From Halobaculum sp. MBLA0147 (lineage in GTDB: Archaea > Halobacteriota > Halobacteria > Halobacteriales > Haloferacaceae), in contig NZ_JBGKAD010000001.1 in assembly GCF_041361345.1 (NCBI RefSeq), forward strand, positions 1,736,001 to 1,800,000: a stretch of DNA of 64,000 nucleotides. The letters are read 5' to 3'. The notes beneath the pieces were generated by a model. It was not told where the DNA came from. It searched no databases and saw only the letters and a program-made list of their open reading frames with translations. Of this stretch, positions 3,935 through 10,937 are shown piece by piece; within the stretch, counting starts at the first letter, position 1, and each line of letters opens with the position of its first letter. The position numbers were made by a program, and so were the translations under genes.

Positions 3935-5806
3935 TTAGGTGTACTGGTCGCGGAACCGCTCGGTCGCGGTGTCGACGGCGGCCGCGACGGTCGTGTCGTC
4001 GGCCGCGGTCAGTTCCAGCCACCCCGGTGGCTCCGGGCTCTGGAGGTCGACCCGCGCGAACAGGTCGGACTGTCGTCTGACGAACCGGCGGACGTTCACG
4101 AGCACGTCCGGCACCGCTACCACCTCCGGGAGGTCCGCCAGGTTGTACTGTAACACGTCGTCGTCGTCCGCGGCCGTCTCCAGTTCTCGCAGGACGTACA
4201 ACACCTCGTCGACCACCTCGTCCGTCGGCACCGCCGACTCCACCTGGTCGCCGCCGGTCCCGGTGGTCGTGTCGTCCGCGGTGTCGTCTCCCGCCGCCGC
4301 GTCGGTGTCCGCGTCGGTGTCCGGCTCGTCCAGCCGCGTCACCTCGACGCGTCCCTCCGCCACGGAGACTCGCACGTCGCCGGTCGCCCGCTCGGCCGCC
4401 GTCGCCACCGTCTCGACGAGGTCCGTCGACAGTTCCGCCGGCACCGCCAGACTCCCGCCGTCGTCGAGGGTCGACGACAGCGTGGTCGCGAACTCGACCG
4501 CGACCGCGAGGGTGTCTGCCGCCTCGACGATCTCCTCGGCGTCGCGTCGGGCCGCGTCGAACTGGCAGTCGTGGAGCGTGCGCTTCACCTCCTCGATCCG
4601 GCGACGGAGTTCACGCGAGCCGGTCGCGGCCTCCGTCTGTCCGTCGACGACCACCTCGCGGAGTCGGTCCGCGAACCGCAGTCGGTCGTCCTCGATCCGC
4701 GACTCGGCGGTCGCGAGGTGGTCGGTGGCGTCCGCGACGGCCGTCGCGACCGGCTGTTCCCGCCGGTCGAGGTACGACTCCAGACGGTCGAACGCCTCGC
4801 CGGCCGCCGCGACCGCCTCCGCGAGTGTCCCCACCTCGGTGTCGCCACGGGCCGCGTCCGTCAGCGTCTCGCCGAGGTGGTTCACGTGGACCGGCCCGTC
4901 GACGCCCGGTAGGTCGAACTCTCTGTGCTCCGTCGGGAGGTTCTCCAGTCGGTAGACGCCACCGAACGTCGACGTGACCGTCGGGTCGTCGTACCGGTCC
5001 GCGAGGCGGTCGGCGAGGCGGTCACGGAACGTCCGCTCGGCACGGTCGAGCCGGCGGGACGCGTCGAGACGGTCGACCGCCGTCTCCACCTCCGCGACGC
5101 GTCGGTACCGCTCCTCGGAGTCGGACAGCGACCGACACGTCTCGATCCGGTCGTGCAGCTCCGTCGCCTCCGACTCGAAGTCGGAGCGCTCACCGCGGAG
5201 GTCTCGGACGGCGTCGGGTGCCACGTCCGCGAGCGTGTCGAGCGCCGACGCCGGGAACCGACGGTCGAACTCCGTGTCGAACGTCCGTTCGGTCTCCTCC
5301 AAGTCGGCCTCGACGGTCGCGAGGTCGGCGTTGGCCTCCTGTTCGACGACCCGTTCCCACGGGTAGTCGTAGGCCGCGTACACCATCGCCCCCGCGGCGA
5401 GGACGGGGACGAGCGTGAACCCGACCAGTTGGACTGCCGGGACGTCGGCCGAGTACAACGGCGCGTACACGCCGAAGAACAACGCCGCGAACAACACCGC
5501 CCCCAGTCCGACGGCACCGTACGTCGCCTCGCGGTGTTCGAAGAGGTACATCCCCGCGCCCTGTGCGGCCCACGCGGCGACGATCAACAGGAACAGCGCC
5601 ATCACGACGCCGGAGCTCGACTTGAACACCACCGCCGCCTCGAACAACACCGGGACGGACAACAGTGGATCGGCGACCGGTTCGACCCCCGCCGACTCGG
5701 AGGTGTAGCCGAACAACGCCATCAGCGTCTGGACCAAGGTCACGACGAGCGGGACACCCGCGACCCCCCACGCGACCAGTGGTCCCCTGTCGGAGACGGT
5801 GGACAT
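3935..5806 (-). CDS. Four-TM membrane protein with long helical cytoplasmic domain
   Basis: A 623-residue protein. Hydrophobic segments at about 10-33, 66-86, 95-117 and 122-143 predict four membrane helices. The remainder is charged and largely helical, with long coiled-coil-like stretches from about 150 to 430, an acidic linker rich in Asp and Thr near 485-520, and a folded tail. I used the ATG at 5806; an ATG seven codons upstream is possible but less natural. It is the first gene of the minus-strand group that continues with two tubulin-superfamily genes, which makes it a candidate membrane anchor or scaffold for those polymers. No enzymatic motif is seen. The family is not one I can name. 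Confidence 0.75.
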   Translation of the reverse strand: MSTVSDRGPLVAWGVAGVPLVVTLVQTLMALFGYTSESAGVEPVADPLLSVPVLFEAAVVFKSSSGVVMALFLLIVAAWAAQGAGMYLFEHREATYGAVGLGAVLFAALFFGVYAPLYSADVPAVQLVGFTLVPVLAAGAMVYAAYDYPWERVVEQEANADLATVEADLEETERTFDTEFDRRFPASALDTLADVAPDAVRDLRGERSDFESEATELHDRIETCRSLSDSEERYRRVAEVETAVDRLDASRRLDRAERTFRDRLADRLADRYDDPTVTSTFGGVYRLENLPTEHREFDLPGVDGPVHVNHLGETLTDAARGDTEVGTLAEAVAAAGEAFDRLESYLDRREQPVATAVADATDHLATAESRIEDDRLRFADRLREVVVDGQTEAATGSRELRRRIEEVKRTLHDCQFDAARRDAEEIVEAADTLAVAVEFATTLSSTLDDGGSLAVPAELSTDLVETVATAAERATGDVRVSVAEGRVEVTRLDEPDTDADTDAAAGDDTADDTTTGTGGDQVESAVPTDEVVDEVLYVLRELETAADDDDVLQYNLADLPEVVAVPDVLVNVRRFVRRQSDLFARVDLQSPEPPGWLELTAADDTTVAAAVDTATERFRDQYT

Positions 5807-5944
5807 AGTAGGGGGGTCGGCACACACTCACAAAATTGTTCGCCGTCGCGTCCCGTAGTCGTCGCGGTGAGCGTGTGAACGCGTTCCACGACGCCACGCA
5901 TCCGGAATCCTTAACTCCGATACGGCGGTACGTCGTGGTGACGC

Positions 5945-6017
5945 GCCGGTGTAGCTCAGCTGGTAGAGCGATTCCTTCGTAAGGAATAGGCCGAGGGTTC
6001 AAATCCCTCCACCGGCT
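5945..6017 (+). tRNA. tRNA-Thr (anticodon CGT)
   Basis: A complete 73-nt cloverleaf. The acceptor arms GCCGGTG and CACCGGC pair over seven bases, with discriminator T at 6017. The D-arm has GCTC/GAGC, the anticodon stem ATTCC/GGAAT closes the loop TTCGTAA, and the T-arm GAGGG/CCCTC closes TTCAAAT. The anticodon is CGT, reading ACG. CCA is not encoded. There is no intron. A TATA-like CCTTAACTCC lies about 30 bp upstream. Confidence 0.97.
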
Positions 6018-6119
6018 CTGTCCTTCCTCCCGAAGACGACCACGGTAGTTACGTCGCCGAGTTCGTTCCCGAACCGCACGCCCACCTCACACAGATTCTC
6101 GCACCGACACGGACGCACC

Positions 6120-8363
6120 TCAGAACCGCACCAGCGAGTCGTTCCGCCCGGTGGCGACGGCCGTCTCGACGTCGCCGAGGTCCCACCCGAGCGGCGAGAG
6201 GACGCTCGCGGTCGCACGCAGCGCCAGTCGCCGGTAGAACGCCGCGTCGTACCGCGTCCCCGGCTCGACCTCCGGCCGCAGACGCACCCGGTCGCTCGTC
6301 GCGGCGTCGTCGTCGACGACGAGGTACTGCACGTCCTGCCCCGGGTGAACCGAGCGCCCGAGACGCTCGGCCCGGCGGAGTGCGGCGACCGCCCGCGTCC
6401 GGTGGTCGTACGCGTCGGCCGTCTTCGTCACGCGCTGGCGGACGAGCAGGGCCCGTGCCGACACGTCGCCCGCCGCGAGGCTGCGGAGGTGCTCGGCGAG
6501 ACACCCGACCACCGCGTCGGCGTCGCGCGTCTCGTCGAGCGTCTCGATCAGATCCCGTTGTACGTCGGCGACCCACGAGGGTGTCGAGCGCTGTCTGGCC
6601 TCGATCCCGCGTGTCTTGTATCGATCCTCGTCCGGCCCGGGATCCGCCCGGCGGCCGACGTACCGCGTCAGTGCGCCGGCGTCGCCGTCCCGGCGAGTAC
6701 AGAACGCGACCCAGTCGAAGGCGCTCTCGTACTCGAGGTCGACCCCCACGTCGGCCGACACCCGTGCGGCGACGGCGTCGAGCGGCTCCTGCGTGGCCCC
6801 CTCGCGGGGTGTCACCCACAGGGAGTCGACGATCCCGTGGAGGACGCGCCAGCCGGCCGCCTCCAGCGTCTCCTTCGCGGTGAGGAGGATGTCGCGAGCG
6901 TAGGCGTTGATCGCCTCGTGGACCTCGATCCGGCCGAACTTCGCGTTCGAGAACCCCTGGTACCCGAAACACGACACCAGGATCCACTTGAGCGCACGCG
7001 ACCGTCCGGCGAGGCGGTCGCGCTCGGTCGCCGAGAGATCGTCCTCACGGAGGCGTCGCTTCGCCGCCGCGCGGTCGTCGACGATCGGTTCCAACACGTC
7101 CGGGAGGACGCCGTCGCGGTCACACACCGAGTAGCCGAGCTCGGGCACGTCGGCGCGGTCGTGACACCGACACCGGACCGTCTCCGGCGAGAGGTTGTGT
7201 CGGCAGATCACGTTCGGGTACAGCGACGCGAAGTCCAACTCGTGGACCGTCTCGTGGAGCCCCACTGCGGGGGCGAGCGTCGTCCCGCCGCGGTCGCCGG
7301 CGTGGAGTTGGCGTGCGGTCTTGAACCGTTCCGGGCGCCACGCGTGCCACTGGACGAGTACGTCGCGGGCTCGCGCCTCGCGGATCTGGATCGCGGTGAG
7401 CACGTTGCCGATGCTCGCCCACCCGAGTTCCTGGAGCGGCTTGCGCGACCGTGCGACGAGGTCGAGACAGCCCGCGAGGTTCGTCTCGTCGAGGAAGAAC
7501 GTGTTCGACCGGTCGAGGAGGACGCGCCCGGGGACATCGTACCGCGCCGGACTGTGGTGGCGCTGCCCGTACGACTCGAACGTCGATCGCTCGGCGAGTT
7601 GCCGGTAGGTGGGGACTACCTCGCGGTCGAGCCCGGTCGGGACCCGCGGCAGTCCGAGGTCGACGCCGAGCCGCTCGGCGCTGTCGGCCACCAGCGGGAC
7701 GACCGCCGCGCGGTTCACGACGAGCACGTCCGGGTCGAGCGTGTCGAGGCGAGCCGCGAGCGTCTCCAGTGCCGCTCGTGCCGTCTCCGCTGGCGTCGTC
7801 AGGGTGTCGGGGGCCTCGGCGACCGCGTCCGGGCCGGTCGTCGTGGTGGTGCCGAGACGGAGCCGCGAGAGGTCCTCGTCGGCCATCGCGCCGGACGGCA
7901 GTCGGAGCTCGTAGACCGTCGGGAGGCGGTCGGGGACGGGCGAGCGGTCCCGGTCCAGACAGAACCGGAACCCGGGCGAGAGGTCCACGTCGAACGCGCG
8001 GTAAGGAACCCGTCCGGGCGGTCCCCGATCCTCGACGAACGTCGCGACGCGTCGCACGCGACGCATCCGGTCGACGGCGACACGGAGCGTCGGCTGCTCG
8101 GCGAAGCGGTACCCCGGGCGACGCGTCTCGACGCGCTGGTCGACGACCGCCGGGTGGTCGGCCAGCGTCTCGCGCAGGTCGGCGAGTGCCGTCCGACACC
8201 GCTCCGGGTCGGGATCCGCGGCGGTCATCCCGTGGCGTGTCACGACGAACAGTGCCGGCCGGTACGACTCGTGGACGGTCGCAGCCCAGCCCGGGTCGGT
8301 GGGTGTCCCGGTCAGCGACCACGCGACGGGGTCGCCGTCGAGGACGTCGATGGCGTACGGCAT
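6120..8363 (-). CDS. polB2: Family B DNA polymerase, PolB2-like, with altered catalytic motifs
   Basis: A 747-residue family B polymerase. Motif A ([10 protein letters not shown]) is intact and motif B ([15 protein letters not shown]) keeps its Lys and the Tyr-Gly region. Motif C reads HGIVDS where active enzymes have YGDTDS, so the first of the two aspartates is replaced by Ile while the second, generally the more critical, is kept. In the exonuclease region the NxxxFD motif is replaced by NRAAVVPLV, so proofreading is probably lost. Archaeal PolB2-type enzymes are known for such disrupted sites. It is last in an operon after a small protein (2-bp gap) and a RadA-like protein. It may be a weak or translesion polymerase, or a structural factor. 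Confidence 0.85.
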
Positions 8364-8365
8364 CC

Positions 8366-8746
8366 TCACTCGGGTCCGTCGGTGGGTGTGTCGGCTGGAG
8401 CCTCGTCTGGTGCGTCGTCTGGTGCGTCCGCTGGCGCGTCGTCGAGGGTCGTCTGTGTCTCTTCCTCGTCCGTCGTCTCGCCGCGCTCGACCGGCTGGGT
8501 GAGACGAGTCTCCAGTTCGTCGATCCGTTGTTCCTGTGCGAGACAGATCCCGACGAGGAGTGGGACGACCGGCGACTCGTGGTTGAGGTGGCTCGCGGCG
8601 TCGGCGTGGTCGCGGCCGTACCGGAACAGGCGGTCGAACCGCTCCTGGTCGCCCCGACGGAGTGCGCGCCGGTACGGGCCCCAACGGTGTTCCAACGCCT
8701 GCAGGAGATCGCGGTAGGTGGGGTTAGTCCGGCCCACGATCACCAC
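8366..8746 (-). CDS. Small helical protein between RadA-like and PolB2 genes
   Basis: A 126-residue soluble protein. Residues 1-90 form a compact Arg-rich, probably helical domain (for example YRRALRRGDQERFDRLFRYG). The last 35 residues are an acidic, Asp/Ala/Pro-rich tail. I do not recognise a family. Its ATG overlaps the stop of the RadA-like gene by 7 bp, and its own stop is 2 bp before the polymerase start, so the three genes form one tightly coupled unit. A role as an adaptor between the other two is plausible but inferred. Confidence 0.75.
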   Translation of the reverse strand: MVIVGRTNPTYRDLLQALEHRWGPYRRALRRGDQERFDRLFRYGRDHADAASHLNHESPVVPLLVGICLAQEQRIDELETRLTQPVERGETTDEEETQTTLDDAPADAPDDAPDEAPADTPTDGPE

Positions 8747-9714
8747 CCCGCTCCCGGCGTCGGTGTCCTCGGGGACGCCGGCGACCCCGGCGACGCACGT
8801 GTCGGGTCACTCTCCGTCACCGTCGCGTGGCGGGCCCGGAGCAGTTCCCGCCAGAAGGCGAGCGTCGTCTGGACGGTCCCGTCCGCACCCGGGTACGCCA
8901 GCGTCTCGAACGCCACCTCGTCCCCGTGGAACCGCGGCCCGAACGGCGTCCGCTCGACGCCGATCCGCGTGCTCGCGGCCGCCAGCGGCTCGGAGAACGT
9001 CGTCGGCCGCGCCCGTGTGGTGAGGACCGGCACGTCGAGCGCCCGGACCACGCGACGGAGGAGCGCGACCGCCCGGACGAACAGTCGGCGACACGCCGCC
9101 TCGGGGCGGTCGCTGGCCCGGTAGAGCGCGTCGAGTGCGGGGGCGACGACGACCGCCAGACGCTCCGTCGCCGGACCACCGAACGGACTCGTCGCGCCGT
9201 CGTCGACCCAGCGTGCGAGCTGGGCGACGAGCGTGTGGTGTTGGTGAGCGGTGAACGCACGGGCGACGTGGACGCGATCCAACACGCGGTCCGTCGGTGC
9301 GACCCGCACCAGCGTCTGCGTGGTCGCGTACCCTTGTGCGTCGATCCAGACCACGTCACCACCCTCGTCCAGCGCCGTGTCCACCGCGAGGGTGTCGAGC
9401 GCGGTGAGGACGTCCCGCCGTCGCTCGCGTGGCGTCTCCGCGTCCGGATCGAGCCGGTAGATCTCGGCGTCCAACTCGGGCAGTTCGGCCGTCGGTGGCT
9501 CCGCGTCGAGGTCGCCGACGACCGGCGAGGCGTCGGCGGTGCGTCGGTCGTCGGCGTGACTCCCGAGCAGGGTTTCGGGACTCGGGCCGAGGCGCCGCGA
9601 GTCACCACGGGTCGCCACCGGCGGGCGGTCGGTGCGTCGGCTCGCAGCACCCGTCTCGGAACGGGTGCCGTCGGTCTGTATCTGCACACGCAACCGTCTC
9701 GGCGGCGGGCACAT
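8740..9714 (-). CDS. RadA/RecA-like protein lacking a Walker A motif
   Basis: A 324-residue protein. The block VVWIDAQGYA, followed by a segment reading DRVHVARAFTAHQHHTLV, matches the RadA core (IYIDTEG... VARAFNSNHQ). The expected GExxSGKT loop before it is missing; an Arg/Glu-rich helix occupies that place. The protein is therefore a degenerate recombinase fold unlikely to hydrolyse ATP. Residues 1-75 are a variable, charged leader. The ATG at 9714 was chosen because the frame upstream is low-complexity and crosses a palindromic control region. It is the first gene of the operon with a small protein and PolB2. By analogy with bacterial ImuA-ImuB-DnaE2 it could load or regulate the polymerase; this is inference. 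Confidence 0.75.
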   Translation of the reverse strand: MCPPPRRLRVQIQTDGTRSETGAASRRTDRPPVATRGDSRRLGPSPETLLGSHADDRRTADASPVVGDLDAEPPTAELPELDAEIYRLDPDAETPRERRRDVLTALDTLAVDTALDEGGDVVWIDAQGYATTQTLVRVAPTDRVLDRVHVARAFTAHQHHTLVAQLARWVDDGATSPFGGPATERLAVVVAPALDALYRASDRPEAACRRLFVRAVALLRRVVRALDVPVLTTRARPTTFSEPLAAASTRIGVERTPFGPRFHGDEVAFETLAYPGADGTVQTTLAFWRELLRARHATVTESDPTRASPGSPASPRTPTPGAGW

Positions 9715-9803
9715 AACCGCGACCGGGCCGTCGCCGGCTTTCCGCGTAGGACCGGCCGTCGGGTGTGACCCCGACGAGCCGCCGCGTCTCGGACGCGCGG
9801 TGG

Positions 9804-9857
9804 GTTTCCGGGTCGTTTCCGGAAACGGGGGTTCTCCGGGTCGTCTCCGGAGACGAC
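9804..9857. promoter_or_regulatory. Paired palindromes upstream of the RadA-like/PolB2 operon
   Basis: Two perfect palindromes lie 28 bp centre to centre. CGTTTCCGGAAACG is at 9814-9827, and GTCGTCTCCGGAGACGAC is at 9840-9857. Each is preceded by a matching half-site (TTTCCGGG at 9805 and TTCTCCGGG at 9832), so the block is a direct repeat of a half-site plus palindrome. It lies about 90-145 bp before the RadA-like start and just past the Orc1/Cdc6 gene stop. It may be an operator. The first copy, followed by GGGGG, also recalls an origin recognition box. Confidence 0.55.
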
Positions 9858-9914: not shown

Positions 9915-10937
9915 TCACTCCGTGGTCGAGTGAGCGGGGACGGCCGCGTACGTCCGACTCGGCCCCTCGCCGCTGGCGGCCACGAGGTCGTAGTGAGTGA
10001 GCTTCTGGAGCCACGAGCGCACCGTCCGCTTGGTCCGTGGGTCCTCGACCCGCTCGCGGTAGCGGTCGTACAGCTCCTTCGGGGCGAGTTCGCCCGCCTC
10101 GACGAGGATCTCGTACACCGTGCGTTGCTGTGGACGGAGCGCGTTCAGGTTCTTCGTCCGCACGTCGCGGTGCCCCTCGGGGATCGCCGCCTCGACGTGG
10201 TCGTCCGCGAGGCGGTCGACACCCGCCCGGTCGGCGCGGCGGGCGGCACTCCGGAGGATCGACAGCGCGACACGGGCGTCGCCCCCGCCGGCGTCGGCCA
10301 TCCTGTGGAGGTGCGCGTCGGTGACGGCGTCTCTGACCAGCCCGTGTTCGACGCGCGCCGCGAGGATGTCGACCAACTCCGCGGTGTGGTAGGCGTCGAC
10401 GTGGACCGTCTCGGCGGTGTGGAGCCGCGACCGGACGCGTTCGTCGAGCCCGGCGAGCAGTTCCGCCTCGTCGTTCGTGACGAGGACGATCGAGAACGTC
10501 GGGAGACGGTAGAGGTCGTACACGAGCCGGGAGTCTTCGAGTTGGTCGGCCTCGTCGAGCGTGACGATCACCGGCGGGCCGTCGTAGGCGGCGAGTCGGT
10601 CGAGTAGTTCGTCGTGGGGGGTCGAGCGCCGCCGGACGTCGACGCTCTCGCCGAGCGCGCCGAGGATCTCGTAGGTGGCCTTGAACCGGCTGTACGACTG
10701 CCAGCAGTTGAGGTGGACCGCCGCCACGTCGCGGACCGTCTCGCGGAGGCGCGAGACGACGAACTTCGTGATCGTCGTCTTTCCGGTCCCCGACGGGCCG
10801 GTGACGAGTGCGGGTTCCGTCGGCTCCCCGTCCGTGATCGGGCGGAGCACCCGCGACAACGAGTTGACCTCGTGGTCGCGGTGGACCACGTCGTTCGGGA
10901 CGAACCCCTCCCGGAGGACGCGGGCGTCCGTGATCAT
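9915..10937 (-). CDS. orc: Orc1/Cdc6-family replication initiator AAA+ ATPase
   Basis: A 340-residue protein of normal Orc1/Cdc6 length. Walker A GPSGTGKTT is at about 48-56, Walker B reads VTLDEADQL, and the sensor region LVTNDEAELLAGLDERVRSR is typical of the family. The C-terminal 90 residues form the winged-helix DNA-binding domain that recognises origin recognition boxes. Haloarchaea carry many paralogues, so this need not be the main initiator. I found no clear cluster of origin boxes upstream (10938-11050). Palindromes downstream of its stop are noted separately. The start is the ATG at 10937. Confidence 0.93.
   Translation of the reverse strand: MITDARVLREGFVPNDVVHRDHEVNSLSRVLRPITDGEPTEPALVTGPSGTGKTTITKFVVSRLRETVRDVAAVHLNCWQSYSRFKATYEILGALGESVDVRRRSTPHDELLDRLAAYDGPPVIVTLDEADQLEDSRLVYDLYRLPTFSIVLVTNDEAELLAGLDERVRSRLHTAETVHVDAYHTAELVDILAARVEHGLVRDAVTDAHLHRMADAGGGDARVALSILRSAARRADRAGVDRLADDHVEAAIPEGHRDVRTKNLNALRPQQRTVYEILVEAGELAPKELYDRYRERVEDPRTKRTVRSWLQKLTHYDLVAASGEGPSRTYAAVPAHSTTE

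Follow-up and report, generated by a model that had tools for sequence, protein, structure and literature searches.

The closest described relatives of the locus considered here are known from Sulfolobus and from comparative genomics. In Sulfolobus the B-family DNA polymerase PolB2 (Dpo2) is damage-inducible and mutagenic, and an Orc1 paralog, Orc1-2, binds its own promoter (PMC7390963, PMC8764526, PMC9738581). PolB2, an inactivated RadA (arCOG07763 in haloarchaea) and arCOG07300 were assigned to a single predicted operon, which an arORC2 gene often accompanies (Makarova 2014, PMC4104785); the two partners have since been named iRadA and PPB2, and a heteropentamer of PolB2, iRadA and three PPB2 has been modelled (Timinskas 2025, PMC11791011). 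Here we consider a 64,000-nucleotide stretch of the haloarchaeon Halobaculum sp. MBLA0147 (contig NZ_JBGKAD010000001.1, positions 1,736,001 to 1,800,000; hereafter the window), in which iRadA, PPB2 and PolB2 stand head to tail on the minus strand (Table 1). We read the triad as PolB2 mutasome genes of the kind already published, with a predicted damage-tolerance function in haloarchaea. We consider it quite probable that they specify an exonuclease-less PolB2 mutasome for lesion bypass, and we suggest that the operon may be under damage control by a partner Orc1/Cdc6 acting at a CGGAA promoter element. The triad itself being in print, what we could not find described is the operator common to PolB2 operons and one Orc clade; no earlier report of the CGGAA element was found in the literature searched, subscription papers lying outside its scope.

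The three-gene observation from which this study started, hereafter the original prediction, is confirmed far beyond chance: in a profile search PolB2 matched NF004418 at 971 bits (cut-off 692), and the gene order recurs in haloarchaea. Motif C of PolB2 reads HGIVDS, its first aspartate gone and its second, Asp513, kept and invariant in 38 relatives; Asp377 of motif A is kept and equally invariant in 38 sequences, and motif B retains Lys459 and Gly-Tyr. In B-family polymerases the metals are carried by the second motif-C aspartate together with that of motif A. On alignment with the PolB3 of the same genome, DxE (Exo I), NxxxFD (Exo II) and YxxxD (Exo III) are all missing from PolB2; the altered motif C and absent NxxxFD first reported are both borne out. 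The structure model shows a complete B-family fold at a mean predicted local distance difference test score (pLDDT) of 86.4. A loop motif of the D(K/R) type is present as LLDRSNTF (D284-R285), D284 being invariant in one alignment of relatives and conserved in at least 90 percent of another, with some relatives having DE or DT. Sulfolobus Dpo2, with IID replacing DxD, shows robust activity and no proofreading, and it can extend primers with mispaired ends (PMC8764526; PMC11791011); according to the PolB2 mutasome literature the Sulfolobus polymerase is needed for damage-induced mutagenesis. Since both catalytic aspartates are kept, and Dpo2 with IID is active, 'degenerate' would, by motif and analogy, describe the proofreading of PolB2 and not its synthesis; the likening of the triad to cassettes with a 'damaged polymerase' was in this respect misleading (PMC8764526).

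The partner proteins conform to the same picture. The RadA-like protein was said to be without Walker A, and GxxxxGK[TS] is indeed absent both from the window iRadA and from all 42 aligned iRadA sequences. Its single sequence gave a weak Pfam Rad51 match (E 0.0015); the 42-sequence profile reached RadA/Rad51 at 1.5e-12, and the structure model matched Rad51, RadA and an XRCC3 complex by fold at 3.5e-11, residues 1-63 being modelled as mostly disordered with no N-terminal helical domain there. For the small protein PPB2, family searches returned no Pfam or NCBIfam match of note. Its open reading frame (ORF) is open from GTG 8746, of which the fourth codon is GTG 8737; the relatives all begin MGRTNPTYRD or near, GTG 8737 yields exactly (M)GRTNPTYRD, and this codon is most likely the start of a protein of 123 residues. 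With that start PPB2 begins 2 bp after the iRadA stop and does not overlap it. Thus, while the ORF of the small gene and its 2-bp gap to PolB2 were correctly described, the 7-bp overlap with iRadA was probably an artefact of taking the first GTG, and the length of 126 residues is likely three too many. Within the N-terminal arm (MGR..T.RD), M1, G2, R3, T7 and R9 are invariant in 38 sequences; the acidic C-terminal tail of the window PPB2 is not common to its relatives.

The likeness to the published PolB2 mutasome (PMC11791011, PMC4104785) extends to the three families and their order iRadA-PPB2-PolB2, the MGRT arm with Arg3 and Arg9, the D(K/R) motif, the loss of the exonuclease and of Walker A, and the Orc1/Cdc6 neighbour; the mutasome paper lacks the promoter element common with Orc genes and the near-universal tail motif of haloarchaeal PolB2 described below. 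The bacterial ImuA-ImuB-DnaE2 cassette, to which the locus was originally compared, also joins a RecA/Rad51-type partner to a polymerase for damage tolerance, and a damage-tolerance unit of this sort is the published reading of the operon. The triad is not, however, a member of that family: its polymerase is of family B, with neither DnaE2 nor a Y-family enzyme, and PPB2 is not polymerase-like. With E. coli Pol V (UmuD'2C-RecA) it shares a polymerase, a RecA-type protein and a small oligomeric subunit whose N-terminal arm is inserted, a parallel drawn in PMC11791011; Pol V differs in its Y-family polymerase, its active RecA and its other small subunit.

Conservation of the triad across haloarchaea was named as a check of the original prediction, and it holds: among 131 PolB2 loci, of which 80 are from named organisms, both iRadA and PPB2 are present at 106, in some of them with PPB2 and PolB2 a few kilobases apart; the other 25 lack iRadA, PPB2 or both, a few of these being cut by contig ends. 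Of 242 haloarchaeal genomes, 163 had a match to NF004418, as did 64 of the 74 genera; a second Halobaculum genome, the only one searched besides that of the window, had none. Could the three genes be decaying, role-less remnants of a replication cassette? The patchy spread just described, including the absence from that congener, and the splitting of some copies by inserted DNA would agree with it; the open frames, and the invariant motifs and promoter retained across families whose proteins are about 50 percent identical, argue so strongly the other way that we find this scenario scarcely credible. A catalytically dead PolB2, the complex then having a structural or regulatory role at stalled forks, deserves somewhat more attention, considering the loss of the first motif-C aspartate and of the whole exonuclease site and an older prediction that PolB2 is inactivated (PMC4104785). 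We nevertheless regard it as very improbable, given the invariance of Asp377 and Asp513 in 38 sequences and the robust activity of Sulfolobus Dpo2 with IID (PMC8764526, PMC11791011).

Among the variant loci, inserted DNA of 0.7 to 4.4 kb separates PPB2 from PolB2 at L117, L118, L133, L144, L145, L150, L152 and L157, TnpB-like genes lie directly upstream of some partnerless PolB2 copies (L010, L016, L035), and in Haloarcula rara (L134, 4668-7097) PPB2 and PolB2 share one open frame, a fusion of two mutasome parts. The genome of the window itself has a second PolB2, about 51 percent identical (L058, G000:C4:143000-156000; 4153-6429, minus strand), on a 226-kb contig also bearing an Orc1/Cdc6 gene. 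In this copy motif A reads DFGSMFP, with Phe for Tyr, and just upstream lies a tandem CGGAAACCCGGAA. We rejected its classification as a pseudogene because the TGA in question precedes the likely start.

The evidence for a common operator comes from 96 dereplicated promoter regions of PolB2 operons, compared with 60 rounds of shuffling for the tandem count. These contain a conserved element of fixed geometry, YGGAA-N3-6-YGGAA-N15-TTA[T/A]. The YGGAA-N3-6-YGGAA tandem occurs in 44 of the promoters (shuffled mean 1.0, largest 4), and in 33 promoters a repeat anchored at the fixed spacing to TTA[TA] is found (shuffled mean 0.0, largest 1), under a pattern that also tolerates variation at two positions of the distal half-site. 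In 41 cases YGGAA lies 15 from TTA[TA]; a smaller peak at 23-24 corresponds to the distal repeat. The repeats start 8-9 or 12 bp apart. As controls, the reverse complement matched 4 of the 96 promoters and the backward reading none. PolB2 copies standing alone carry similar promoters. A stricter pattern, searched across the 242 genomes in full, found 65 matches, spread over 52 of them; the backward pattern matched once. Thirty of the 64 distinct sites immediately precede an Orc1/Cdc6 gene, and 16 precede iRadA; two further sites, cut by the stretch end, are at known iRadA promoters, four (L195, L196, L197, L205) were judged by eye to lie upstream of integrase-like genes, and the others are at Orc remnants or unexplained. 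The integrase-linked sites may point to damage-induced movement of integrated elements. A pattern search of the window's own genome (4.29 Mb) found only 37 loose tandem sites, two of them overlapping, and five of these places precede iRadA, the second PolB2 or three Orc genes.

Within the PolB2 loci, the element with its TATA-like box precedes 20 of 32 upstream-linked Orc genes and 2 of 19 other Orc genes, and both of the latter adjoin their operon or sit just past its distance limit. All 26 element matches among the 1,020 ORFs of these loci, attributed by position, fall at Orc, iRadA or (once) PolB2 starts. In a quick tree of 103 Orc rows, with long branches noted, one side of a well supported split holds 34 PolB2-upstream Orcs, 29 element-bearing Orcs and four paralogs of the window's genome including that of the window, and the other side nearly all initiator-type and plasmid Orcs (Shimodaira-Hasegawa-like approximate likelihood ratio test, 97 and 98). 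Because the element is common to PolB2 operons and their linked Orc genes, much as Sulfolobus Orc1-2 binds ANTTTC elements at its own and other damage-response promoters (PMC9738581), these patterns suggest an Orc-type regulator of the mutasome operon. The two systems differ in the element, which in haloarchaea is not ANTTTC but a tandem YCGGAA with constant spacing to a TATA-like box, and in gene arrangement, many haloarchaeal genomes having the Orc gene next to the PolB2 operon; the likeness noted here is one of promoter pattern. In the window's genome two Orc paralogs carry the tandem. We also note a triple repeat CGGAAACCCGGAAACCCGGAA at G000:C2:195951-195971, ahead of an Orc1/Cdc6 paralog that belongs to the same clade as the window Orc.

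A different element serves some of the operons. The pattern TT[TC]CA[CG]TT[TC]CA is found at the same place in 11 of the 96 promoters, mostly of Halorubrum (shuffled mean 0.05), and is close to the motif TTTCACTTTCA reported before radA1 and other UV-B-induced Halobacterium genes (Boubriak and colleagues, PMC2556686). Only one promoter has both this and the CGGAA element. PolB2 operons of one family thus carry either the radA1-type UV element or the CGGAA element, and this alternation is an indirect sign that fits damage control. In the genome of the window TTTCACTTTCA occurs three times, once before radA; it also precedes the gene of a 341-residue protein with no function assigned (L237, G000:C1:364547).

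Table 1. Features of the mutasome locus, in window coordinates.
Feature	Coordinates	Strand	Basis
PolB2, B-family polymerase of the PolB2 group, 747 residues	6120..8363	minus	motif and profile evidence
PPB2 (arCOG07300-like), 123 residues from GTG 8737	8366..8737	minus	conserved arm in relatives
iRadA, RadA/Rad51-like, without Walker A	8740..9714	minus	sequence profile and fold match
TTAT, putative TATA-like element of the operon promoter	9713..9716	minus	inference from conserved element
Single CGGAA, 23 bp upstream of TTAT (the distal half-site distance)	9740..9744	minus	sequence and distance statistics
Tandem CGGAAACGACCCGGAA, candidate operator, 11-bp repeat spacing	9806..9821	minus	200-bp Orc-iRadA gap
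Orc1/Cdc6 paralog, 340 residues, Walker A GPSGTGKT and Walker B intact	9915..10937	minus	same clade as PolB2-linked Orcs

In the window the Orc1/Cdc6 gene lies 200 bp upstream of iRadA. The tandem in this gap is not significant alone, since 18 of 100 window shuffles held a match. The iRadA ATG 9714 overlaps the TTAT (9716-9713); if TTAT is indeed the TATA box, a leaderless start of iRadA near GTG 9687 instead becomes possible.

What, then, would bind the CGGAA repeats? We propose, with slightly less than even confidence, an SOS-like switch in which a dedicated, non-origin Orc1/Cdc6 paralog recognises the tandem YCGGAA repeats that precede its own gene, the PolB2 mutasome and certain integrase genes, coupling fork damage to mutagenic bypass, with the radA1-type UV-B element taking its place in other operons, mostly of Halorubrum. 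Let us assume instead that another transcription factor binds the element and the Orc gene is merely a co-regulated target. The second, unrelated UV-B-type element of some PolB2 operons and the four sites before integrase-like genes would sit comfortably with such a factor; the parallel offered by Sulfolobus Orc1-2, a protein that binds the promoter of its own gene and those of other damage-response genes (PMC9738581), and the gathering of element-bearing and PolB2-linked Orcs in one clade speak for the paralog itself, and we give the other factor a reasonable chance of being the answer, perhaps one in which a third or so of our belief is placed. The tandem might also be an origin recognition box (ORB), with a part in starting replication at an Orc-linked origin instead of one in gene regulation. 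We take this as a serious rival because a published haloarchaeal ORB-like sequence contains CGGAAAC (PMC3528665); in addition, Orc genes often lie beside their origins, and one tandem of the window's genome precedes an initiator-type Orc (C5:156551). However, the spacing to a TATA-like box is constant at 15 bp, the repeats face the gene in a single orientation, and they occur before iRadA operons with no adjoining Orc and before PolB2 copies without iRadA, so that an origin function appears unlikely to us.

Taking the Orc paralog as the regulator, the sequence of events might be imagined as follows. After damage, the paralog would act at the CGGAA repeats found both before its own gene and before the mutasome operon. 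PolB2 would then, with iRadA and PPB2, extend distorted primer ends, carrying mispaired termini past lesions. In this assembly iRadA would be a Rad51-fold scaffold, unable to use ATP, that holds PolB2; PPB2 would form a small helical oligomer also holding PolB2, its MGRT arm perhaps reaching toward the polymerase and the DNA. Mutasome assembly and lesion bypass in the Halobaculum host are in this sense predicted. Several points weigh against the combined reading. The window promoter departs from the consensus spacing, having only a single CGGAA near TTAT, and the Orc gene's own promoter in the window is without the element; some PolB2 copies, including that on C4 of the same genome, have neither iRadA nor PPB2 beside them. 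No assay of any haloarchaeal PolB2 was found in the literature searched. polB2 is dispensable in Halobacterium (PMC1906834), can be deleted in H. volcanii (PMC7776575) and was not seen in the UV-B-induced gene tables of the Halobacterium study (PMC2556686). In one study an S. islandicus polB2 mutant showed little damage sensitivity (PMC8100216), the mutant phenotypes differing between laboratories (PMC7390963 vs PMC8100216).

The C-terminus of PolB2 may be a clamp-binding tail. The motif [LIVM]xx[FYW] falls within the last 16 residues in 114 of 118 distinct PolB2 C-termini, compared with 23.5 in shuffles (maximum 35), a contrast whose significance the shuffle test overstates because the sequences are kin to each other. 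In the window this motif, resembling a PCNA-interacting peptide (PIP), is NDSLVRF, without the canonical Gln. The replicative PolB3 of the same genome ends in EIESGQEQTGLGDWG, with QTGLGDW where PolB2 has [LIVM]xx[FYW]; from this correspondence in place the PolB2 tail looks like PolB3's PCNA box minus the Gln, and we infer that it may bind PCNA. PCNA motifs have been reported in only a small fraction of PolB2 (PMC11791011). Two other candidates were set aside: QTTLDD in the window PPB2 was dropped because that tail is not conserved, and a conserved QTT[LIWF]x[FY]W in iRadA is not claimed as a PIP box, the RadA fold continuing there and the canonical spacing being absent. Just downstream of PolB2, and convergent with it, a tRNA-like sequence (GTAGCTCAGCTGGTAGAGC...GGTTCAAATCC; window 5950-6020, plus strand) was recognised by eye.

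The findings on the triad bear out a wide occurrence in haloarchaea of the recently proposed PolB2 mutasome; with Haloferax volcanii and Halobacterium, this group offers good genetics for a PolB2 biology so far studied in Sulfolobus. The shared operator makes testable how archaea outside the Sulfolobales sense damage and start mutagenic bypass without LexA. Should the Orc1/Cdc6 paralog prove to be the switch, a second archaeal phylum would be known to employ a replication initiator as a damage regulator.

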